DNA from: Sphingobacteriaceae bacterium
GTDB taxonomy: Bacteria; Bacteroidota; Bacteroidia; Sphingobacteriales; Sphingobacteriaceae
NCBI GenBank assembly: GCA_029266635.1
Contig: JAQSWM010000004.1
Coordinates: forward strand, 248,001-312,000
Reading direction: 5' to 3'
Length of the DNA stretch: 64,000 nt
Shown here: in pieces, positions 9,803 to 39,906 of the stretch
Layout of the letters: each line of letters starts with the position of its first letter
Numbering within the stretch: position 1 is the stretch's first letter
The notes under the pieces: model-generated
The model's input: only the letters and a program-made list of their open reading frames with translations
Told to the model about the DNA's origin: nothing
The model's database searches: none
Position numbers and translations under genes: made by a program

Positions 9803-10888
9803 CTAGTTAAAATATGGTGCAGCTTGGCTCACACCACGAGTTGGAGTACCTTCCAGATCGTTATTCCCGTTACGAAGGAATCCATCAACGCAAATAGCAC
9901 GGTCAGACCAGCTTTCAGCTGAAGTTGTTTTAATTCGATATACCATCCACATGTCGCCATGGTCATCTACTACGCGGTTAGGTGCTCCAGGTCCATACAA
10001 GCCCATTGAAGGATTTTGAGAGAATAATGGATTTTGTCCTGTTCCGGTACCTTCCGAAGGTTTTGTGAAAGGGCCTGTCGGCGAGCTTGACCAGGCGTAG
10101 CCAATTGCATACCGGGCTAAATGGCCACCTGACCCATTATACAGCATGTAATATCTTCTGGCTGTTGGAGCGTTCGGAGCATAGTACACTAATGGGTGTT
10201 CGATGTTTACGTTTTCCCAGGCTTGAGTTATGGTCAAAACTTGCTTATCAGTGCCTGAAACTTTATTCAGCCCATCAGCAGTAAGTTCTACACAACGTAG
10301 GTCAGGATTAGTGCCTGTGCCCACGTTCCGAGAGTAATACATATAAACCTTGTTGCTTACAGGATCTTTGAAAACCGATGGGTCAATACACGGAATATAA
10401 GTTCCGTCAGACTGTTGTTTAACCATCAGGCTGGAATTAACAACTGTGTATGGCCCGCCCGGTGAAGTGGAAGTTGCCACACCAATAGTTTTGTTCAAAG
10501 TGCCTTTGTTGGCTGTGAAGTAAAGATTATAGGTGCTGCCATATTTGTACGAACCAGCAGACCAATAGGATCCGGTGCTTGCAGTCAACAATGATGCAGT
10601 TTGTTTTGTCCAGTTGATCAGGTCTGTTGAATGATAGGCGAAATAATCATTGCCATCTGGGTACACAAGCCAGAATTTCCCGTCTGCCGCTCTGAACACC
10701 TGGGGGTCTTTTGGGTTTTGTGAAACTGGGATCACTGCGTTTTGGAACGTTGCTTTTACATTGCCAAACTGTTTGGAGTTTGCACCTGTTCCTGATTTCT
10801 CTGCAAGCTCGGTTCCGTTCTGTTTACAAGATGACGTTGCCAACAGCGAAAGGCACGCCGCGGCGAGCCAGAAAGTGTTTTTTTTCAT
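9803..10888 (-). CDS. GH43-like glycosidase lipoprotein
   Basis: This 361-residue protein is a lipoprotein (signal peptide with lipobox LATSSC, Cys21) carrying a five-bladed beta-propeller of the GH43/GH62 type. GH43 enzymes release arabinose or xylose, or cleave arabinan or galactan. Candidate catalytic residues are the base D61 in KDPQVF, the pKa-modulating D169 in IDPSVF and the acid E230 in NIEHPLVYY. Blade repeats such as GKFWLVYPD and VYMYYSRN are typical. Length fits a single catalytic domain without a carbohydrate-binding module. It stands alone, 18 kb from the sulfatase/xylose block, and has no neighbouring SusCD. Substrate cannot be assigned. Confidence 0.75.
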   Translation of the reverse strand: MKKNTFWLAAACLSLLATSSCKQNGTELAEKSGTGANSKQFGNVKATFQNAVIPVSQNPKDPQVFRAADGKFWLVYPDGNDYFAYHSTDLINWTKQTASLLTASTGSYWSAGSYKYGSTYNLYFTANKGTLNKTIGVATSTSPGGPYTVVNSSLMVKQQSDGTYIPCIDPSVFKDPVSNKVYMYYSRNVGTGTNPDLRCVELTADGLNKVSGTDKQVLTITQAWENVNIEHPLVYYAPNAPTARRYYMLYNGSGGHLARYAIGYAWSSSPTGPFTKPSEGTGTGQNPLFSQNPSMGLYGPGAPNRVVDDHGDMWMVYRIKTTSAESWSDRAICVDGFLRNGNNDLEGTPTRGVSQAAPYFN

Positions 10889-28591: not shown

Positions 28592-30001
28592 TTAATCCCG
28601 GGCAGTATTTGATGCTCCCACCCTGATGCGCCACTCCTTCAAATCTTTGGAAAGCTCCGTCACTTTCTCAGGATATTTCGTATACAAATTCACCGTCTCA
28701 GAAGGATCGATTTTCAAATTAAAAAGCTCCGTAGAATTATCATCAAAATACTCAATCAGCTTCCAGTCGCCTTTTAAAATGCTTCCCGCTGATCTTCCGC
28801 CCAGAAAGTGGGGCTCCGCCAAAGGATAGTGCCAGTAAAACGTCCGTTCCGGCATTTTGTATTTGGGGCTCTGCAGCAGTTTAGCAAAAGAAAAACCATC
28901 TAACTTTTGGCTGTTGGGCTTAGCCATGGTTAGCTCCATAAAGGTTGGGTAGAAGTCGAGGTTGACTAATCTTGCTGTTTCTGTCCTGCTTTTTGCCGAA
29001 AACTGTGGATTGTAGACTATCATAGGCTCACGAACACCACCTTCGTACAACATGCTCTTCCCGCCACGCAAAGGCGCATTGGTAGTTATGCGTGTCTCGC
29101 CGCCGTTGTCGCTGGTAAAAATGATGATCGTGTTTTTATCCAGTCCGAGTTCCTTCAATTTCTTTTGGATCAGTCCCACACCTTCGTCTATTGAAAACAA
29201 CTGTGCCGCCAAGTGTGGGTTGTTGGTGGTTGCCCGCACATCTTCCGGCCAGTTTTTGTAGGGATCATTTCCTTTATTGTCGCCCGACACCGGGCTTTTT
29301 CCGGCGCCGGTTTTTTTTCTGAAGTGATCCACAAGCTCCGGCTTTCCGGTAGACCAGGTGTGAACGGCGTAATGGCTCAGATAAAGAAAGAAGGGCCTGG
29401 TTTTATTCCGGTCAATAAATTCCAGCGCTTCCAGGTTCTGCCGGTCGGTTAAAAACTCGTGTTCGACATTCATTTTCTTTGGAACGTCGAGATTGAACTG
29501 GTACGGATACCAGTATGGGCCAACGCTGATACCCTGGTTCTCGCTTATCAATACTTCCTGAAAGCCGTGCTTATCGGGCAGGGTTTCGTTGGGGGCACCA
29601 TTCTTTTTGTATCCCGACAGGTGCCATTTCCCCACAATGCCCGTATGATAGCCATTATCACGCATCATTTCTGCAAGAGTGTAATGAGCTGTATCCAGGT
29701 GATCAGCAGCTTTTGGCCTCAAATAGTCAATTATGCCAACCCTGGCCGGATACTGGCCCGTCATCAAAGCTGTCCTGTACGGCGAGCATACGGGAGCGGC
29801 TGCGTAGAAGTTGGTAAAACGTATCCCTTTCGACGCCAGCCTGTCGAGGTTCGGCGTTTCGTTAAACTTATTCCCATAGCATCCTAATTCCGAATAGCCA
29901 AGGTCGTCTGCCAGAATAAAAATGATGTTCGGCTTTGAAGCGTTTTGCGCTAAAACCAGTAAAGGGCAAAACACAAGCAATGAAAGGATTGCTTTTTTCA
30001 T
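28592..30001 (-). CDS. Secreted sulfatase, FGly type (CSPYR)
   Basis: This 469-residue S1-family sulfatase would remove sulfate esters from a glycan outside the cytoplasm. A signal peptide (1-19, ending VLAQ) precedes the catalytic alpha/beta domain. Metal ligands lie in FILADDLGY (D32, D33). The formylglycine cysteine is C72 in CSPYR, with LMTG after it, and KWHLSGY supplies the substrate-site Lys/His. FTSDNGGET holds the second metal pair. The C-terminal domain has the DWKLIEYFDDNSTELFNLK segment. The Cys form needs a sulfatase-modifying enzyme (an anSME in this phylum), which is not in the window. It is last of a three-sulfatase run (33050 to 28592), 15 bp after its neighbour. Confidence 0.92.
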   Translation of the reverse strand: MKKAILSLLVFCPLLVLAQNASKPNIIFILADDLGYSELGCYGNKFNETPNLDRLASKGIRFTNFYAAAPVCSPYRTALMTGQYPARVGIIDYLRPKAADHLDTAHYTLAEMMRDNGYHTGIVGKWHLSGYKKNGAPNETLPDKHGFQEVLISENQGISVGPYWYPYQFNLDVPKKMNVEHEFLTDRQNLEALEFIDRNKTRPFFLYLSHYAVHTWSTGKPELVDHFRKKTGAGKSPVSGDNKGNDPYKNWPEDVRATTNNPHLAAQLFSIDEGVGLIQKKLKELGLDKNTIIIFTSDNGGETRITTNAPLRGGKSMLYEGGVREPMIVYNPQFSAKSRTETARLVNLDFYPTFMELTMAKPNSQKLDGFSFAKLLQSPKYKMPERTFYWHYPLAEPHFLGGRSAGSILKGDWKLIEYFDDNSTELFNLKIDPSETVNLYTKYPEKVTELSKDLKEWRIRVGASNTARD

Positions 30002-30016: not shown

Positions 30017-31624
30017 TTAATTTTTATACACCTGCTTTCTATTTCCTTTCGGAAGAACGTTGTGGCTGTTCGCCCAGGCTATCCAGTGCGCATCCAGATC
30101 CTTCACGATGTCCGCGTGCTGCGCTGCCACATTGAACTGTTCCGTCCTGTCAGAATCCAGATCGTAAAGTTCCCACTGTTTAGCATCTAACCGTTTAACT
30201 CCTTTCCACTTTCCGTGGCGAATGGCACAATTATCTTCATGTTCCCAATACATATAGTCGTGCTGTTCGCCCTTGCCATTCAGGAAAAGCGGTTTCATGC
30301 TGATGCCTTGGTTCGGGTAAATTGTATTTCCGTTATACACCTTCGGATATTTTGCTCCCGCGATATCCAAAACCGTCGGCATAATATCAATCAGGTAATG
30401 CGGCGTGGAATTAAATTTGCCCGCCTGTGACTTAATAACTCCCGGCCAATAGGCAATAAAAGGTGCAGACATTCCACCCTCATACGTTTCAATCTTGTAT
30501 CTTCTGAATGGCGTGTTAGAAACGTTAGCCCAACCCTTTCCGTACGATACCGCCCAAAATTTATCAGGGTTGTTAACCTCGCTCATCGGCTTTCCTCCAA
30601 GCTCCAGTCCCGGCTCGGCAGCAGCGCCGTTATCCGATAGGAACATAATGAACGTATTTTTCAGCTTTCCGCTGTCTTTGAGGCTCTTCACGAGCTTGCC
30701 CACATTATAATCAAGGCAATATACCTGTGCTGCATAAATCGCCATCCGGTAAGAAACATCCTTCTTCTCTTGTGCGGTCAGCTCATTCCATGGGCGCATA
30801 TCCTGTTTGGAAAGCCCCCATTCTTTTTTAACCAAACCCATCGCAAGCTGTTTTCTCCAGCGCTCCTGGCGCACAGAATCCCAGCCGATATCGTATTTGT
30901 GCATAAACTTGTCGATATCCGCTTGTTTAGCCTGAAGCGGCCAGTGCGGAGCGGTGTGCGCCAGGTACAGGAAAAAGGGTTTTGTATCTTTTTGTTCGTT
31001 GATGAACTTTATCGCATTGTCAGTATAGAAATCAGTGTCGTAGTAGCCTTTTGGAGCATCATAAACCGGAGGATTATTTCCGTAAACAATCCCACGGAGA
31101 GGAAAAGGCTTTAAATGGCTGGAACCGCCTGGCAATATACCTGTAAACTGCTCGAAACCACGTTGTAAAGGCCACCTGTCGGGAGTTGCCATGCCCACGT
31201 GCCATTTGCCGGTCATGTAGGTGTGGTAGCCCGATTGTTTAAGCACCTCGGCAATTGTTACGCAGTTTTTATTGAGATAGCCTTTGTAGCCATCAATGCC
31301 CCAGTCGCTTGCGGTCGGATTTTCAAGCTCCTCAGCCATATGTCCCACTCCCGTCTGGTGCGGGTGCAGGCCAGTAAGCAAGCTTGCTCTTGACGGGCAG
31401 CAGCGGGCGGTGTTGTAAAACTGCGAAAGTTTGATTCCCTGCGCTCCAAGCGCATCAATATTGGGTGTTGGAATTTCGCTGCCATAACAACCCAGGTCTG
31501 AATAGCCCATATCATCAGCAAGAATGATGATAATGTTAGGCTTCTGCTGACCTTTCTGAGCCGAAGCCAAATGCCAGGAAGCGGTTAAACCTAAAACAAG
31601 GCAAGCCCGGAGAATTGCTTTCAT
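30017..31624 (-). CDS. Secreted arylsulfatase, FGly type (CCPSR)
   Basis: A 535-residue S1 sulfatase with a signal peptide (1-22, ending ASAQ). Metal-binding D37/D38 lie in ILADDMGYSD. The maturation motif is RCCPSR, with C75 as the formylglycine precursor (C-x-P-S-R), then LLTG. KWHVG and FLSDNGAAAE are the other active-site segments. It resembles the longer arylsulfatase A-like enzymes with an insert before SDNG. The start at 31624 gives the signal peptide; a frame opening at 31729 overlaps the upstream gene. Its ATG lies two bases after the previous stop (TAGCATG), so it is translationally coupled to the next sulfatase. Substrate cannot be read from the sequence. Confidence 0.92.
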   Translation of the reverse strand: MKAILRACLVLGLTASWHLASAQKGQQKPNIIIILADDMGYSDLGCYGSEIPTPNIDALGAQGIKLSQFYNTARCCPSRASLLTGLHPHQTGVGHMAEELENPTASDWGIDGYKGYLNKNCVTIAEVLKQSGYHTYMTGKWHVGMATPDRWPLQRGFEQFTGILPGGSSHLKPFPLRGIVYGNNPPVYDAPKGYYDTDFYTDNAIKFINEQKDTKPFFLYLAHTAPHWPLQAKQADIDKFMHKYDIGWDSVRQERWRKQLAMGLVKKEWGLSKQDMRPWNELTAQEKKDVSYRMAIYAAQVYCLDYNVGKLVKSLKDSGKLKNTFIMFLSDNGAAAEPGLELGGKPMSEVNNPDKFWAVSYGKGWANVSNTPFRRYKIETYEGGMSAPFIAYWPGVIKSQAGKFNSTPHYLIDIMPTVLDIAGAKYPKVYNGNTIYPNQGISMKPLFLNGKGEQHDYMYWEHEDNCAIRHGKWKGVKRLDAKQWELYDLDSDRTEQFNVAAQHADIVKDLDAHWIAWANSHNVLPKGNRKQVYKN

Positions 31625-31625
31625 G

Positions 31626-33050
31626 CTATTTTTCTTTGGTGATGTGCCAGTCTTTCGGTGCTTTGAATTTACCCTTCGGACCTTTCGATAAAAGTTCCTT
31701 GGCTGCTTTGATGGTATCGTAAGGCGCAACTTCCTTTTTCAGCTTGTTGTACATCTCCAAATTAGCCGACTTCAAATTGTTCTTTTCGGAAAAATCCGGA
31801 GGAATATTGAACAACACATCGCCGTTCATCCCCATTTTCTTTATGCCTTTGTCTTCAATCAGCTTCCAGTCGCCATGGATGATAGCGCCGTGTCCGAGAT
31901 AAAACTCACGATCTATATTTTTCACCTTTCCACTCAACACCGGCCACATGCTTATGCCATCAAGCGGATTTTTTGCCGGAGTTTTTACACCGGCAATTTC
32001 TTTTAAGGTTGGGAAAACGTCTACGAACCCCATTACTTGATTGATATTGCCACCACCTACAAGCCCCGCGGCTGGCCACTTAATTACCGCCGGCGACCTT
32101 ACACCACCCTCCCATTCGTCAAACTTATATCCTCTAAGTATTCCGTGGGATGCTACGGCACCATTTCCGGCGGCACCGTTATCGCTATGGAAAAGAACAA
32201 GCGTATTCTTATCAACGCCCTGATCCTTTAGCGCTTTCATAATTTCGCCTACTCCCCTGTCGAGGGCTCTCACCATTGCAGCATAAGTTTGCTTTGGAGT
32301 ATTTCCATGTCCTCTGTCACCGCTTTCTGCGCTTTCGTCGCCTCCTTCTGTACCGTGGAAGCGTGGTTTAGACGGATCAAAGCCGACTGCTTTCAAATCC
32401 TCTTCAGTTGCCTGAAGCGGCCCGTGAGGCGCATTGTAGGCTACATACATCATAAAGGGAGCTTTATCCTTCGAGTATTTGCTAATACACTTTACGGCTT
32501 CGGCGGTCAGCAGGTTAGTTGAGTAACCTTTATCTTTCGACGGCAAATAATCGTTTTGCCAATCCACTTCGCCTTCGCGTTTATGGGTGAAGTAATCTAT
32601 TGCTCCATTTAAATGTCCGTAGAAGTGTGTGAAGCCACGGCGCATCGGGTGATATTGCAAGGTTTCGTGACCGAGGTGCCACTTCCCGATCAACGCACGG
32701 TTTTTATACCCGGCTTGCGCAAGCATCTGCGGTAAAAATTCTTCAGATGTGGGCACACCAAAATCGCTCCACGGTGGAATGGTAGCATCTCTGATCCCCA
32801 CTCTGTTTGGATAACGACCGGTCATCAAACCCGCCCTTGTTGGGGAACAGATCGGTGCAGTGTAGTAGCGGGTGAGGTTAACGCCCTCGCCGGCTAACTG
32901 ATCAATGTTTGGTGTTTTTATGGAACTTCCGTGATAGCCCACATCGCCCCATCCCAGATCGTCGGCAAGAATAATAATAATGTTAGGCTTCTTTGTTTGT
33001 CCGAAGCTGAACATGGGCAGCAGCAGCAAAAAGCAGATAAACTTTCTCAT
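31626..33050 (-). CDS. Secreted sulfatase, FGly type (CSPTR)
   Basis: This 474-residue S1 sulfatase has a signal peptide (1-18, ending FSFG) and the DD metal pair at 30-31 (LADDLGWGD). The active-site cysteine is C68 in ICSPTRAGLMTGRYP. KWHLGH, the HGPLQA loop and LFHSDNGAAG follow in the usual order. It is the first gene of a three-sulfatase run. On the minus strand, TACTTTTG at 33094-33087 could be its -7 promoter element, though no good -33 element was found. It lies 129 bp downstream of the large toroid-type protein. A putative C-terminal FKAPKDWHI tail is basic. Confidence 0.92.
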   Translation of the reverse strand: MRKFICFLLLLPMFSFGQTKKPNIIIILADDLGWGDVGYHGSSIKTPNIDQLAGEGVNLTRYYTAPICSPTRAGLMTGRYPNRVGIRDATIPPWSDFGVPTSEEFLPQMLAQAGYKNRALIGKWHLGHETLQYHPMRRGFTHFYGHLNGAIDYFTHKREGEVDWQNDYLPSKDKGYSTNLLTAEAVKCISKYSKDKAPFMMYVAYNAPHGPLQATEEDLKAVGFDPSKPRFHGTEGGDESAESGDRGHGNTPKQTYAAMVRALDRGVGEIMKALKDQGVDKNTLVLFHSDNGAAGNGAVASHGILRGYKFDEWEGGVRSPAVIKWPAAGLVGGGNINQVMGFVDVFPTLKEIAGVKTPAKNPLDGISMWPVLSGKVKNIDREFYLGHGAIIHGDWKLIEDKGIKKMGMNGDVLFNIPPDFSEKNNLKSANLEMYNKLKKEVAPYDTIKAAKELLSKGPKGKFKAPKDWHITKEK

Positions 33051-33179: not shown

Positions 33180-35408
33180 CTATTCGCTTTTCGATAACCT
33201 CTCATATAGTTTTTTGTCAAATTCTTCCAGTCCAAAGATTCCGTTCAGATGGCTCGTGCTCACCCAGGGAAGCCAGGCCCTGTGCATCCCGACACCACGG
33301 ATCGGGGCGAGGCTCCAATGTTCCTGCTGCCAGCCCGGACCTAAAAGGTCATACGTCCTTCCGGGAATTGCAAGCATCCCTTTTGTATTGTGCAACAATA
33401 TCCGGGCTACATCTTCATAATGCTTGTCTTTGCAGAGTACAGATAGCTTTGCGTACTCATCTACATCGAAACACATATAAGCATCTACAAGGGAATGTCC
33501 GGTGGATATCAATTGCAAGCCCACTGTTGATACGCCTTTTTTCCACTGCAGATCGTTGTCAGATTCATCTTCGGGCATGGGTATATTCCAGATGTACATC
33601 CACGTTTCAGCATAGTCTGCAGCCACTTTTGCCCGGTCAAGCCATTCTCTATTGCCGGTATAATTAAACAATTCAAGGTAAGCCTCTAACGACAAAGTTC
33701 CGGCCTCCTTATCAATCACATTCGGATTATCTACCGTCCCACCCACAAACAGAGCTTTGTACTGGCCGTTTTTCCAGCAAAACTCCCCTGCGCTGATTGC
33801 CGCATTTTTGTATTTGGCATCGGCGGTTAAGTCGGAAAGTAACAACAGATATGGTATCACTGTGTAGCTTGACTCGGGCGACGCATCGATAGTTCTTCCT
33901 GTCCCAGCTTCCCAAGCTCTCGGGAAACCACCGAAAGCACTTTGCTGAGGAAGCAGCCAGTCGCCAAAACTTTTTGCCCATGCAGTCCAGTCATCGTGTT
34001 TTACCCCGTCCGCTCTCTCCCGTTTAACGGCACGAAGCAACGACTTTAAATCATCCCCAAAAATGCGCAGGTAAATTCTACCGTCTTGCGGGCGGTTTAT
34101 CACAGGCTGTCCCGTATCCATATTAAAACCTTCTCCTGTTGGCGGAGAAAGTTTTAAAGTTTTAACAAAGGAATTGATCAGATTGTATCCTTGCTGCCGA
34201 TGCAATGAATCAAGTGGCGAGGTATGACGAGCAGCATCCTGTATAAGGAAATTTGCACTTTCCAGTGCCTTTCCGGTAAAGCCCATAGTTGAAGCTCTGT
34301 TGGGCGGTGCGGGTGAATTTACCGCGGGCGTAGCTTTGGGTATGCCTGACAAGCCATTGTGGGTTTCTACCCGTTCGCCGAGCATATCAATCAGGCTACG
34401 GCGGGCCGCCTCGATGTCCTGATAGTTTACCTGCGGTTTAAGCGTTGCCCAGGCCCAGCGCCAGGCGTTCCTGTAGTATTCAGGAAATTGTTCTTCTTTG
34501 CTTCCAAAACGGAAAGCAACTTCATACCGTTGCACATAGCCATCCTCAACCGGATTATACCTCCGGCGCCATTTGTTTAACTGCCCGCCCGGGTAAGTTT
34601 TGCCTTTATAAGTATAAGCGCCTTCGGTCCCCGGCCACATATATCCGTATTCGATATTGTTGTTTACCTCCTGCACCCCGAGCGAGCCGAACTTAAACTT
34701 TCCGTCTATAAGATCTTTAACTTCAAGGTCGCGGGAATCTTCACGGGTTGTAGCACCGTCGGGCGATGGATTGAGTACGGATACAGATGTGCCGTCTTTA
34801 TACTGTATTCCAAACAGCGGCGCTGGCAGCCGGTCTTCGCGGATCCAGGTAACAAGGCCGCTTTTCTTTCCGCCGATGGCTACTTCGGTCAGGTTATCTG
34901 TAGTACCGTAAATCATTCCGGGGACAAAATAATTTACATCTGCCCTGGTTTGCTTTTGCTGATTATTGAGCGTAATTGCAGATAGAAATCCATTGCCCGC
35001 TCTTGTGCCCGCCACATTCACGGTTCTCGATAAGCTAAGCACATTTTTATCTGTTTTCCACAGATCTGTAACTGTAAATGACACATCGCCGGAAATAATC
35101 ACGGCAGTGGCAGACACGCTTCCATGGTTCCTGCTGATGGCCTTATAACCATCCGACAAGTGGCTGATTTCATTTGCGCCTCTGTAAACCTCAACCTGAG
35201 CGGGGTTTTCCTGGTAAACGGAAGATAAGCCGGCTTTTTCTACAACTATGCCCCATTTATTTGTGTTTAACTTATTCAGCGATACTATTGCGCCCCCAGG
35301 CAATTTACCAATTATAACCTGAGCTGGCTGCTGTTGGGCATTGGCTGTAGAAACAGCAAGAAACAGCAACATCCCCCTAAACAACAAGGAATTAATTTTC
35401 GCACACAT
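33180..35408 (-). CDS. Large secreted protein with probable alpha/alpha-toroid glycosidase-like domain
   Basis: This 742-residue protein is not assigned to a family. It has a signal peptide (1-24, ending NAQ). The N-terminal half (25-300) is beta-rich, with FTVTDLWKTDKNVLSLSRTV and the RADVNYFVPGMIYG segments, as in a beta-sandwich that packs on a toroid. The C-terminal half (330-742) is helical. It has repeated helix pairs such as FPRAWEAGTGRTID, SYTVIPYLLLLS, EAGTLSLEAYLELF and RAKVAADYAETWMYIW, followed by WQQEHWSLAPIRGVG, and it is typical of six-hairpin or GH127/PL-like enzymes. Candidate catalytic acids are in the AGTLSLEAY and PMPEDESD regions. Position among four sulfatases suggests it cleaves the same sulfated glycan, but this is inference. 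Confidence 0.6.
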   Translation of the reverse strand: MCAKINSLLFRGMLLFLAVSTANAQQQPAQVIIGKLPGGAIVSLNKLNTNKWGIVVEKAGLSSVYQENPAQVEVYRGANEISHLSDGYKAISRNHGSVSATAVIISGDVSFTVTDLWKTDKNVLSLSRTVNVAGTRAGNGFLSAITLNNQQKQTRADVNYFVPGMIYGTTDNLTEVAIGGKKSGLVTWIREDRLPAPLFGIQYKDGTSVSVLNPSPDGATTREDSRDLEVKDLIDGKFKFGSLGVQEVNNNIEYGYMWPGTEGAYTYKGKTYPGGQLNKWRRRYNPVEDGYVQRYEVAFRFGSKEEQFPEYYRNAWRWAWATLKPQVNYQDIEAARRSLIDMLGERVETHNGLSGIPKATPAVNSPAPPNRASTMGFTGKALESANFLIQDAARHTSPLDSLHRQQGYNLINSFVKTLKLSPPTGEGFNMDTGQPVINRPQDGRIYLRIFGDDLKSLLRAVKRERADGVKHDDWTAWAKSFGDWLLPQQSAFGGFPRAWEAGTGRTIDASPESSYTVIPYLLLLSDLTADAKYKNAAISAGEFCWKNGQYKALFVGGTVDNPNVIDKEAGTLSLEAYLELFNYTGNREWLDRAKVAADYAETWMYIWNIPMPEDESDNDLQWKKGVSTVGLQLISTGHSLVDAYMCFDVDEYAKLSVLCKDKHYEDVARILLHNTKGMLAIPGRTYDLLGPGWQQEHWSLAPIRGVGMHRAWLPWVSTSHLNGIFGLEEFDKKLYERLSKSE

Positions 35409-35501: not shown

Positions 35502-36953
35502 CTATTTTTTATAAAAGGGGCTTGGCGCCGGCATCAAAGCTTTTGTTTCTTTCAGCCATTTGTCCAGCTCTCCGCGAAGCTTTTCAGCGATTGCCGAATT
35601 GGCAGCAATAACATTTTTCTTCTCGCCGATATCGTTCTTCACGTTGAACAGTTCCTCTATGTTAGCATCATACCACCGTATAAGTTTCCAGTCGCCGTTA
35701 AGCACCGCCGAACCTGGGGCGCCGCCCTGGTTACCGTAGTGCGGATAATGCCAGAAAATCGGGCGATGCTGCATTTTCTTTCCATTCAAAATCGGAACTA
35801 TACTTTGCCCGTCGAGATGCTGCTCTGGCATGAGCGGCTGTCCGGTCATTTGGAGCAAAGTGGGAAAGAAATCAGTGCTCACTACACTCTGTGTAGATAC
35901 TGTGCCCTTGCCCGTGTGTCCCGGCCAGCGGATGAGCAAGGGTTCGCGGATGCCGCCCTCATATAGCCAACCCTTTCCGGCCCGCAAAGGCAGATTTGAG
36001 GTAGGCTGGCCTTCAGCAGTGGACAAACCTCCGTTATCTGAAAAGAAAATGATGATTGTATTGTCGTAAATGCCTTCTTTCTTTAGCTGATCGATTACCC
36101 TTCCTACTCCATCGTCCATAGCTTCAACCATCGCGGCATAAACCGCACTGCTTTGCACTACACGAACTTTGCTCTGTCCTTCATCTTTAAATTCATCTGT
36201 TAGCCCAAGTCTTTTCCTTTTCTCCTCATATTTTTTAATCACTTCAGCTTTTGCCTCCTGTGGAATATGGACGGAATAGTTAGGCAGATAGGCAAAGAAA
36301 GGCTTGTCTTTATGTTCTGAAATGAACTTGCAAGCTTCGTTTGCTAAACGATCTGTCAGGAACTCGCCTTTAGGCCCATCCGGAAGCATTGGATTTGAAT
36401 ATGGTGAGAAGTAGCTTTTTGGATGCCCGGCTCTGAACCCACCTTTGTTAATGTCGAAGCCCTGGTTCTGCGGCCAGAATTCCTCTGTTTCGCCTAAGTG
36501 CCATTTACCGGCGAAAAACGTAGCATATCCCCCTTTTTTCAGTGCTTCCGCGATGGTCGTCTCCTCAAGAGCCAGGCGCTCGGTGTAAGGTGCAGGTAAG
36601 AGCTTTCGCTGAGCGCTGTTTTTAGATGTAGCTGTAATTTCATCCGGTTGAGGCGCACCGAAGAAATCGGTTGTATTGGTGCGCACGGGATATTTTCCAG
36701 TCATTATGCTTGCCCGCGTAGGCGAACAAACCGGACAGGCTGCATAGGCATTCTTAAAGATCATGGACTCCGCAGCCAGCTTTTTGATGTTCGGAGTTTC
36801 GTAAAAAGTTGTTCCGAATGGCTGTACGTCCGTCCAGCCCAGATCATCTATCAAAAAGAAGACAATGTTGGGTTGTTTGGCAGTTTCGGCATCTGCCTGT
36901 TGCAAGCTTAAACCTGCGGTTAACAGGAACAAGCCAAGTGCTTTTAGATTCAT
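35502..36953 (-). CDS. Secreted sulfatase, FGly type (CSPTR), near xylose genes
   Basis: This 483-residue S1 sulfatase has a signal peptide (1-22, ending ADA). Metal-binding D36/D37 lie in LIDDLGWTD. The formylglycine cysteine is C76 in CPVCSPTRASIMTG. KWHLGETEEFWPQNQGFD and FFSDNGGLST follow. It has a longer insert (about 90-120) than its three neighbours and a C-terminal DWKLIRWYDANIEELFNVK strand. The start at 36953 begins the signal peptide; the frame opens five codons earlier. It is separated by 93 bp from the toroid protein downstream and 134 bp from xylA upstream, so it may start a sulfatase operon. CSPTR rather than CSPSR is normal for this phylum. Confidence 0.92.
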   Translation of the reverse strand: MNLKALGLFLLTAGLSLQQADAETAKQPNIVFFLIDDLGWTDVQPFGTTFYETPNIKKLAAESMIFKNAYAACPVCSPTRASIMTGKYPVRTNTTDFFGAPQPDEITATSKNSAQRKLLPAPYTERLALEETTIAEALKKGGYATFFAGKWHLGETEEFWPQNQGFDINKGGFRAGHPKSYFSPYSNPMLPDGPKGEFLTDRLANEACKFISEHKDKPFFAYLPNYSVHIPQEAKAEVIKKYEEKRKRLGLTDEFKDEGQSKVRVVQSSAVYAAMVEAMDDGVGRVIDQLKKEGIYDNTIIIFFSDNGGLSTAEGQPTSNLPLRAGKGWLYEGGIREPLLIRWPGHTGKGTVSTQSVVSTDFFPTLLQMTGQPLMPEQHLDGQSIVPILNGKKMQHRPIFWHYPHYGNQGGAPGSAVLNGDWKLIRWYDANIEELFNVKNDIGEKKNVIAANSAIAEKLRGELDKWLKETKALMPAPSPFYKK

Positions 36954-37087
36954 TTTTTGCCGGAGCATTTAGGTTAGCACGATAGATCAGTCGTTGAAAA
37001 ATTGAGATCTCTAAATTACGCGGCAATTGCCCTACAAACCAAATGTGCAATCTATCAATTTGATTACGTTCTGGTGCCGGAGAGCCT

Positions 37088-38419
37088 TTAGATATATCGG
37101 TTTATCAAATTCTCCAGATACTCCTGCCTGCCGCTTCTCACTTCCGGCTCACCATTTTGCATTGCATATTGGCGAAGATCTTCCAGGCTCAATGAACCGT
37201 TCTCAAACTCTTTCCCTTTGCCGTTATCAAATGACGAATAACGTTCTTCCCTCACCTTCCTGTAATCTGATTTTTGCATGATGTTGTCGGCTGTTATAAG
37301 CGCACGGGCAAAAATGTCCATTCCGCCGATGTGGGCGTAGAACAAATCTTTAGCGTCCGTTGAGTTTCTGCGGATCTTCGCATCAAAGTTCACGCCTCCA
37401 CCCTGCAAGCCGCCAGCTTCCAGGATGATCAGCATTGCTTCGGTGATCTCGTTAATATCATTTGGGAACTGATCCGTGTCCCAGCCATTTTGATTATCTC
37501 CGCGGTTAGCGTCAATAGAGCCTAGCAAACCTGCATCTGCAGCTACCTGCAACTCGTGCTGGAATGTGTGCCCGGCGAGCGTAGCATGGTTCACTTCAAT
37601 GTTCAGTTTAAAATCATCGAGGAGTTTGTACTTCTGCAAAAACCCAATCACGGTTGCGCAGTCGTAATCATACTGATGTTTGGTGGGCTCGCAGGGTTTG
37701 GGCTCTATGAAAAAGGTGCCTTTAAAGCCGTTCTTGCGGGCATAGTCGCGGGCAGTGTGCAGGAATTGAGCAAAGTGCTCCTGCTCACGTTTCATATTGG
37801 TGTTCAACAAAGTTTGGTATCCTTCACGACCGCCCCAAAAAACATAGTTTTCTCCGCCAAGGGCGATGGTTGCATCCAAGGCGGCTTTCACCTGGGCGGC
37901 ACCGTGCGTCAGCACATGAAAGTCAGGGTTTGTGGATGCGCCATTCATATAGCGCAAATGAGAAAACAAGTTGGCTGTTCCCCAAAGCAGGTTTACCCCG
38001 CTTTGCTGCTGCTTGGTTTTAGCGTATTCAACCAAAGCTTGCAGGCGGCTCTCATTTTCCTGAATGTCGTTTCCATAATCAACCACATCCACATCGTGGA
38101 AACAGTAATAAGGCAAATTCAACTTGGTGATAAATTCAAAAGCCGCATCCATTTTATCTTTCGCACGCTCCACCGGATCAGGATTTTTATCCCATTCAAA
38201 GATGTGCGTTGGCCCGCCAAACGGATCGCTGCCATTGCCCACAAATGAATGCCAGTAAGCACAGGCAAACTTGAAATGCTCTTTCATGGATTTGCCGGCA
38301 ACGAGCCTATTTTCGTCATACCACCTGAATGCCATCGGATTATCCGATTCAATCCCTTCGAATTGTATCTGGCCTATGCCTTTAAAAAATTCCTTTTCGC
38401 CTGTAATTACGTTGCCCAT
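37088..38419 (-). CDS. xylA: Xylose isomerase
   Basis: This 443-residue cytoplasmic enzyme converts D-xylose to D-xylulose. It is a class II xylose isomerase by length. Conserved features are H108 in YYCFHDVD, the VFWGGREGY signature at 193-201, the [14 protein letters not shown] segment at 238-251 (metal-binding E239 and the catalytic-site Lys in KPCEP), and [10 protein letters not shown] at 275-284. DANRGD near 303-308 completes the metal site. The gene follows xylB by 5 bp in the same direction, forming the xylB-xylA operon. Upstream sulfatase genes on the same strand are 134 bp away and may or may not be co-transcribed. Confidence 0.95.
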
Positions 38420-38424
38420 TTTTA

Positions 38425-39906
38425 TTAATGTCTTGATGTTAGTTCTTTATTTAACTCTGTTTTCCAATCCTGGTACAGCTCTTCATATAGTTCATGCTGC
38501 TTTGGCTCGATCCTCTTTGCAGCAGACATGTGCGCAAAAACTTCATCAATACCGAAAGCTCCTGCTCCTATTCCGGCACCGATCGCTGCGCCCACGCTTC
38601 CATCGTTCTCAAATAATTCAACAGGAGTATTGCAGGCATTCACAAATGACTGGCAAAATACCTTACTTAAAAACATGTTTGCCTTTCCTGCCCGGATAAT
38701 CTGCGGGCTCATCCCGTTTTTCCGCATAATGTCGAGCCCGTAGCGGAATGCAAACGCAATCCCCTCCTGAGATGCCCGGAACACATGTGCCTGCGAATGT
38801 ATGTTCAGATCGATGTTCTTGAAGTGAGCACCGACAATTTTGTTATTCAGCATCCGCTCTGCGCCATTACCAAAAGGCAGCACGCGTAAGCCATCGCTTC
38901 CCGGCTTGATTGCAACAGCTTCCTCATTCATCCGCTTGTAATCAGGTGCCCCGGATAATGCCTTCACCCACTTATTCAAGATACCTACTCCATTGATGCA
39001 AAGCAAAACGCCAATGCGTTTCTCATTGCTGCTGTAATTTACATGAGCAAAGGAATTGATCCGCGAATCCTGATCGTAGATCAATTTATCGCTTACGCCG
39101 TAAATCACGCCCGAGGTTCCGGCTGTGGCAGCCACTTCACCGGGCTTGAGCACATTGAGGGATAAAGCGTTGTTCGGCTGGTCGCCGGATTTATACGTTA
39201 CCGAAATTCCTGCGGATAAGCCCAATAGTTCAGCAACTTCCGGCGAAAGCCTGCCGTGTTCTGAAAACACATCTTGAACTTTTGGAAGGAGCGTTTGGCT
39301 GAAACCAAAATGCTCCATCACATCCTTAGAAACAGCATCATTCACGAAATCCCAAAACACACCTTCCGACATTGCCGAGACTGAAGTTGTGATTTCGCCT
39401 GTAAGTTTCATCGCAATAAAATCGCCGGGAAGCATTGCTTTATCAGCTTTAGCGAAGACTTCAGGCTCATTATCCTTTACCCAACTGAGCTTGGAAGCGG
39501 TAAAGTTGCCGGGAGAATTCAGCATGTGCGAGAGGCTTTTTTCTTTTCCAATGGCATTGAAAGCATCATTGCCGATCTCCACCGCCCGGCTATCGCACCA
39601 GATAATGGAATTGCGCAAACAGTTCTGATCCTTGTCAACCAGCATGAGCCCGTGCATCTGGTAAGCGATGCCTATTGCAGAAATATCGGTTGAGTTATAT
39701 TTCCCAGAAGCGTGGCATTTCAGAATAGCTTGCTGAACCTGCTCCCACCACATCTCGGGGCGCTGCTCCGCCCATCCCGGTGCAGGGACAATGATTTCAG
39801 ATTCAGCCTCAGGAAACTGAACTGACGAAATGCACTTCCTTGTCTGTGAATCAACAACAGAAACCTTAACAGACGATGTCCCTACATCTATTCCTAATAA
39901 AAGCAT
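38425..39906 (-). CDS. xylB: Xylulokinase (FGGY family)
   Basis: This 493-residue carbohydrate kinase phosphorylates D-xylulose to xylulose 5-phosphate, which enters the pentose-phosphate pathway. The first phosphate-binding loop [11 protein letters not shown] is at residues 5-15. [12 protein letters not shown] (about 83-94) and WCDSRA (about 109-114) are substrate-side motifs, and the second ATP-binding [12 protein letters not shown] is near 261-272. The C-terminal [19 protein letters not shown] segment is typical of xylulokinases. It is the first gene of the xylBA operon. A near-perfect inverted repeat lies just upstream of the ATG. No transporter or AraC/LacI/ROK-type XylR gene is in the window. 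Confidence 0.93.

Follow-up and report, generated by a model that had tools for sequence, protein, structure and literature searches.

The PL27 L-rhamnose-alpha-1,4-D-glucuronate lyase BACCELL_00875 (5no8; 669 aa) consists of an N-terminal beta-sandwich followed by an (alpha/alpha)6 domain, according to the part of PMC8377490 that gives its architecture. GH94 phosphorylases (1v7v and others) are likewise built of a sandwich plus a toroid, and GH127 beta-L-arabinofuranosidases combine both domains in the reverse order. The zinc site of GH127 has conserved cysteines, and the toroidal GH76 alpha-mannanases have a catalytic Asp-Asp pair. The uronate dehydratases BcGDH (former GH154) and P29_PDnc are described, in the relevant parts of PMC12269599 and PMC8511951, as PUL enzymes that assist exo-enzymes, and the BcGDH site is presented in PMC12269599 as mostly Tyr, Arg, Asn and aromatic residues with one Glu.

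Here, we analysed a protein encoded in a 64,000-nucleotide stretch of a Sphingobacteriaceae genome (the window), which resembles the PL27 lyase in length and domain order. We give a probability of about 0.5 to the reading that this protein represents an uncharacterised two-domain family and would act as an exo-glycoside hydrolase, removing a pentose-containing non-reducing-end unit after desulfation of the glycan.

The gene and its gene run

The ORF lies at 33180..35408 of the window on the minus strand and encodes 742 aa from an ATG start with no internal stop. It is a single copy in its own genome (3.6 Mb, 18 contigs). Conservation at 40-70% identity across several phyla shows that the ORF did not arise by chance; the 742-residue protein of an earlier note, made from the sequence alone, thus proved real. 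Its N-terminus is signal-like in sequence and hydrophobicity, with a hydrophobic stretch from residue 8 followed by ANA and QQ, giving a putative signal sequence of residues 1-24 (35337..35408, minus strand; cleavage between ANA and QQ placed by eye), in line with the secretion claimed in that note.

The same-strand order is xylB-xylA-sulfatase-ORF-sulfatase-sulfatase-sulfatase, all on the minus strand, confirming the previously described setting among four sulfatases next to xylose genes. The xylulokinase-type FGGY kinase xylB (38425..39906) had TIGR01312 as its best match (E 2e-93, under the cut-off) and xylulose kinase 2itm as its best solved relative, and the xylose isomerase xylA (37088..38419) matched TIGR02630 above the cut-off (E 2e-201). 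Since xylA is the sole TIGR02630 match in the genome assembly, the sugar set free could well be D-xylose. The four sulfatases matched PF00884 with E values of 2.8e-62 to 8.6e-57: one of 488 aa next upstream of the ORF (35502..36968; E 1.9e-58; 93-bp gap), one of 474 aa next downstream (31626..33050), one of about 544 aa (30017..31651) and one of 469 aa (28592..30001).

Gaps of 5 bp separate xylB from xylA, 118 bp xylA from the first sulfatase, and 93 and 129 bp the ORF from its flanking genes, and the last three sulfatases follow one another with a short overlap and then 15 bp. Strand and spacing suggest that the run from xylB to the last sulfatase forms one operon; we read it from these two features because promoter and terminator scans yielded fewer sites than shuffles and gave no signal support. 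Across the 28.6-39.9 kb block, domain scanning detected no further GH or PL domain. The 26.0-45.3 kb stretch of the window showed no SusC/SusD, and no GH43 gene lay within 22 kb of the ORF. The sole GH43 match in the window is a gene at 9803-10888, 22 kb off the ORF.

Predicted fold and family relations

Two AlphaFold2 models, built from 8 and 10 sequences (pLDDT 71.8 and 76.3; pTM 0.78 and 0.81), placed strands in residues 30-302 and then 13 helices of at least 12 residues at 308-730, plus a short last helix, the helical half being composed of a linker helix and twelve toroid helices. By these models, the protein is predicted to be a beta-sandwich (about residues 28-305; 34494..35327, minus strand) followed by an (alpha/alpha)6 toroid (about residues 328-739; 33192..34427, minus strand; also from VIA-align), which bore out the sandwich and paired helices that had been read from the sequence.

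The Foldseek search with a predicted model that the earlier note had proposed returned carbohydrate enzymes as best whole-chain matches, namely GH94 1v7v (E 5.2e-10) and then PL27 5no8 (prob 1.00, E 4.8e-8), at 8-11% identity and with low TM-scores (0.26-0.45). The GH94 match, at about 11% identity (TM 0.27/0.26), was not accompanied by any GH94 match among PDB sequences for the window protein or the 21-member family profile at E up to 10, and the window protein further differs in its signal-like start.

The PL27 match (8% identity, TM 0.41/0.45) bears on the main rival reading, a beta-eliminating lyase or uronate dehydratase forming an unsaturated uronate, either PL27-like, taking a cap off C4 of glucuronate, or P29_PDnc/BcGDH-like, taking water off. 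Xylans and algal glycans can bear 4-linked or 4-O-methyl glucuronate, which would provide such an enzyme with a substrate, and BACCELL_00875 is among the first two distinct whole-chain Foldseek families with the same domain order. Secreted dehydratases of this kind are also known from the relevant parts of PMC12269599 and PMC8511951. However, the 21-member profile reached BACCELL_00875 at an insignificant E of 0.56 over 72 residues, its best value, no rhamnose-glucuronate context was seen for the window protein, and no sequence link to BcGDH or P29_PDnc was found. Sequence gave no support to membership in PL27 or GH154, and we regard a lyase or dehydratase as unlikely.

In VIA-align, residues 328-737 aligned with known toroids at Z 25.4 to 21.2, led by cellobiose 2-epimerases and their relatives (Z 25.4, rmsd 3.3-3.5, about 340 residues), with GH76 at Z 21-23 and GH88 at Z of about 21-22; BcGDH-type structures were absent among the 50 matches listed, which form a non-exhaustive set. 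The top scores, the resemblance of the toroid to cellobiose 2-epimerase and YihS, and weak PF07221 matches in 5 of the 21 members (best E 0.0015) would suit an enzyme that epimerises or isomerises sugars or sugar ends. Such an enzyme is nevertheless most improbable given the signal-like start in most members, the extra N-domain, the identity of just 8-12% and the drop of merely 2-4 Z units to GH76 and GH88; moreover, the N-acylglucosamine 2-epimerase family has catalytic histidines, whereas no histidine is invariant across the 21 members. The common toroid fold by itself does not reveal the reaction or function.

Sequence searches were consistent with a family that lacks a name. Pfam returned nothing above chance for the window protein (best E 0.1, an RNA polymerase subunit), and NCBIfam and PDB sequences gave no match. 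Against the PDB, the 21-member profile produced only short matches to GH76, one pectate lyase and LanC-type toroids, and no solved relative was found with it beyond these general helix-barrel matches; with GH76 5agd (E 1.1e-6 over 72 residues), just the helix region near the catalytic Asp-Asp pair aligned. Members scanned singly matched PF03663 (GH76) weakly in 14/21 (best E 1.2e-7) and PF07944 (GH127) weakly in 14/21 (best E 1.4e-7), two relatives scoring 19.6 and 22.8 bits against a GH127 cut-off of 24.9. The window protein stayed below both Pfam cut-offs, with neither match at E up to 10. These weak matches could stem from a shared helix-pair barrel, and it is this pattern, together with the toroid, that the protein has in common with GH76. 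With respect to GH127, the order of domains is reversed, the catalytic domain coming first in the GH127 of locus L068 and the sandwich first in the window protein, and GH127 neighbours keep a CC pair, whereas no cysteine is invariant among the columns of 8 or 21 members.

One match under 0.001, with no useful name, was obtained in the BFVD viral structures, no relative was detected in viral contigs, and no description of the family was found in the open PMC papers searched. As far as Pfam, NCBIfam, the PDB and these papers extend, the family is new at family level, as had been supposed from the sequence, and it may have an existing CAZy number.

A conserved charged face on the toroid

In an alignment of 21 members with 19-70% identity to the window protein, the charged residues R448, D560, D566, E568 and D642 are invariant (21/21), and E191, D192, E262, R497 and K567 are nearly so, E191 and D192 being kept in at least 90% of members. 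All seven conserved charged residues of the toroid, together with 13 of the 15 polar or aromatic residues conserved there, lie in the six loops on one face, which account for 51% of the residues of the toroid (P 0.005; helix borders taken from the model, with the first turn of the next helix counted as loop). D560, D566 and E568 belong to the signature loop GGTxDNPxxxDKEA (residues 556-569; 33702..33743, minus strand), and the a9-a10 loop (residues 603-642; 33483..33602, minus strand) holds the invariant W603 and D642 and the nearly invariant W607. A loop of the N-domain, PGxxY...REDRxxxP (residues 163-197; 34818..34922, minus strand), with Y167, E191 and D192 nearly invariant, is proposed to cap the active site, and E191/D192 could reach the conserved face, a placement of low confidence in the model (pLDDT under 50 at residues 166-193). 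The same confidence level applies to residues 561-565, 633-643 and 677-709, which together with 166-193 are the loops that would form the site.

This arrangement fits carboxylate catalysis, but it could instead be a metal site. GH15-type toroids bear an acid in the a5-a6 loop; no acid is invariant there among the 21 members, a point against the favoured reading. Toroid and sandwich domains can also bind glycans without cutting them, and no activity is known for the family, so a non-catalytic glycan-binding or scaffold protein was considered; six conserved carboxylates and the position of all conserved toroid charges on one face make this reading quite improbable. Neither result that the earlier note had named as refuting, assignment to a known non-catalytic family or lack of an acidic active-site cleft in the model, was found, and the protein has an acid-rich conserved face. 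The face also speaks against a dehydratase, being rich in carboxylates where the BcGDH site, in the part of PMC12269599 that describes it, has a single Glu.

Gene company of relatives and proposed role

Close relatives were found at seven loci in the genome scan, on one Deinococcus plasmid and in further genomes. With centre genomes included in the draws and a cut of E below 1e-100, they occurred in 3/395 genomes of a phylum draw (G000, G371, G014), 4/240 of a draw centred on the Verrucomicrobiota genus Ereboglobus, 2/199 of a Planctomycetes-centred draw and 2/121 of the window's own family, and from these low counts the family is rare and patchy. The plasmid scan yielded six records with a match, one of them close. 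Weak genome matches (E above 1e-25), mostly covering 70-250 toroid residues, were not counted as members and may reflect only shared helix patterns. In the tree, a branch at 99/99 sets apart a more distant group, comprising relatives from Catenovulum (L018), Bacteroides (L019), Segatella (L020) and Streptomyces (L021) and the L004 paralogue, the Streptomyces row being very long.

Several individual loci were also observed. Within the taxonomic family to which the window belongs, one relative (L070, G872) has one in-frame TGA and is perhaps a pseudogene. In a MAG labelled Magnetospirillum (L008, 9700-17100), the family gene is in pieces, 83% identical to that of L066 (G487, from the Verrucomicrobiota-centred draw) and shares its neighbour types, which may reflect contamination or transfer. 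A Planctomycete MAG with 93 sulfatase matches carries two tandem family copies of 73% mutual identity (L003, 9860-14427).

We compared the neighbourhoods of 14 close-type loci, which came from 13 genomes or records. A GH43 gene lay within 7 kb in 8/14 loci, against 0.48 expected at random places under a model that ignores gene clustering. A ninth locus (L007) was detected by direct scan only, bringing the total to 9/14 and indicating that the genome scans are non-exhaustive; GH43 was not found nearby in the other 5/14. Because five of the nine (L005, L007, L008, L064 and L066) form one clade with one related GH43 type, the number of independent GH43 events is about five. In L064 (9184-14226), a 1680-aa protein joins the family domain to a GH43 domain and then a BNR-like stretch. 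The best PDB match of two GH43 partners (7.6e-62 and 1e-28) was 3akf, deposited as a secreted alpha L-arabinofuranosidase II, which we take to be an exo-1,5-arabinofuranosidase. GH127 is a neighbour of the family gene in L002 and L068, and L023 has the order GH95, GH43 with CBM6, GH27-like, GH3, ORF. In gene direction, L067 encodes a GH51-like protein, the ORF, an esterase (SASA), GH10 and a second GH51-like protein, with GH10 two genes off the ORF, and the tandem copies of L003 stand beside a pentonate-type dehydratase (ILVD/EDD), an FAD enzyme and a symporter. The GH127, GH43 and GH51 company points to L-arabinose, and GH10 together with xylAB to xylose.

The distant Streptomyces relative (L021, 8510-20489) lies beside two GH28 genes, a RuBisCO-like protein and a four-carbon acid sugar kinase. 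Such genes occur in apiose use, so some members of the distant group may be enzymes of pectin side chains.

The neighbourhoods bear on two of the rival readings. An endo-acting depolymerase of a sulfated polymer would suit the finding that the block has no second GH- or PL-like candidate, and in this respect the earlier note, which had called the protein the only candidate depolymerase, was correct for 28.6-39.9 kb. The term depolymerase itself was not supported, since the relatives keep company with exo-type side-chain enzymes of arabinofuranosidase families, L067 has a separate GH10 backbone enzyme, and the Deinococcus member, which adjoins a sugar ABC transporter, has no signal sequence; an endo mode is therefore distinctly unlikely. 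The same Deinococcus gene suggests small oligosaccharides as the substrate.

As to a lyase, the gene of the distant relative from Bacteroides finegoldii (L019) immediately follows an annotated GH88 gene, the arrangement expected of a lyase or dehydratase and its partner. Around the 14 close-type loci, in contrast, the search revealed no GH88 gene proper up to a distance of 10 kb. GH88 partnership was rejected as a sign of a lyase; the near matches in the same stretches turned out to be the family's own protein (G400) and a GH127 (G780). The enzyme-like reading of the earlier note, glycoside hydrolase or lyase, is kept, with a glycoside hydrolase favoured on these data as the more probable of the two.

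The sulfate link comes from the nearest sister (70% identity; L002, contig 299 of G395), which resides in the order sugar transporter, M24 peptidase, ORF, sulfatase, GH127, two sulfatases, SusC, SusD, sulfatase. Among the four sulfatases of L002, two match those at 31626..33050 and 30017..31651 of the window at 79% and 68% identity, and the 79%-identical one adjoins the sister ORF inside the SusC/SusD locus. The best counterparts of the remaining L002 genes among the compared stretches of contig C16, in the window's own genome, are a GH127 (62%), two sulfatases (63% and 58%), SusC (34%) and SusD (29%), and the GH127 and sulfatases are likely orthologues of the L002 genes. Since C16 holds these counterparts, the window's genome, which has 54 sulfatase matches, appears to divide the L002-type set between two sites; the window sulfatase at 28592..30001 is 67% identical to one of the C16 island. 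That island (G000 contig C16, about 289700-338100; L086-L089) contains GH43s, GH127, SusC/SusD and at least ten sulfatases. Among the genes scanned, most other close-type loci have no sulfatase next door, which makes desulfation a matter of the local setting rather than of the family's core.

In summary, we infer carboxylate catalysis, exo action, a pentose substrate and the following order of steps for the favoured glycoside hydrolase. The neighbouring sulfatases would first take sulfate off the glycan, and the exported window protein would then hydrolyse a terminal L-arabinose- or D-xylose-containing unit in exo fashion, with D560, D566, E568 and D642 as candidate catalytic carboxylates together with E191/D192 of the N-domain loop. 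Its partners would be the four sulfatases and probably a GH127/GH43/SusC-SusD set from another part of the genome, and the pentose thus released would be passed to xylA-xylB of the same gene run. The most likely substrates are arabinose- or xylose-bearing units of sulfated plant or algal sugars. More tentatively, and with some doubt, the protein may belong to an unnamed GH family, with members in Bacteroidota, Verrucomicrobiota, Planctomycetota and Deinococcota, that has a catalytic set undescribed for sandwich-plus-toroid enzymes (D560/D566/E568 with D642, closed by the E191-D192 loop). In that case it would remove a pentose cap at a step between the sulfatases and the arabinofuranosidases in the breakdown of sulfated arabinans or xylans.

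Algae contain sulfated glycans rich in pentoses, and to our knowledge the enzymes acting between sulfatases and known arabinofuranosidases are poorly mapped. A family with no Pfam or NCBIfam name that resides near GH43, GH51, GH10 and GH127 is a candidate for a missing step in the breakdown of both sulfated and plain arabinan or xylan, and a short list of candidate residues is now available for testing.
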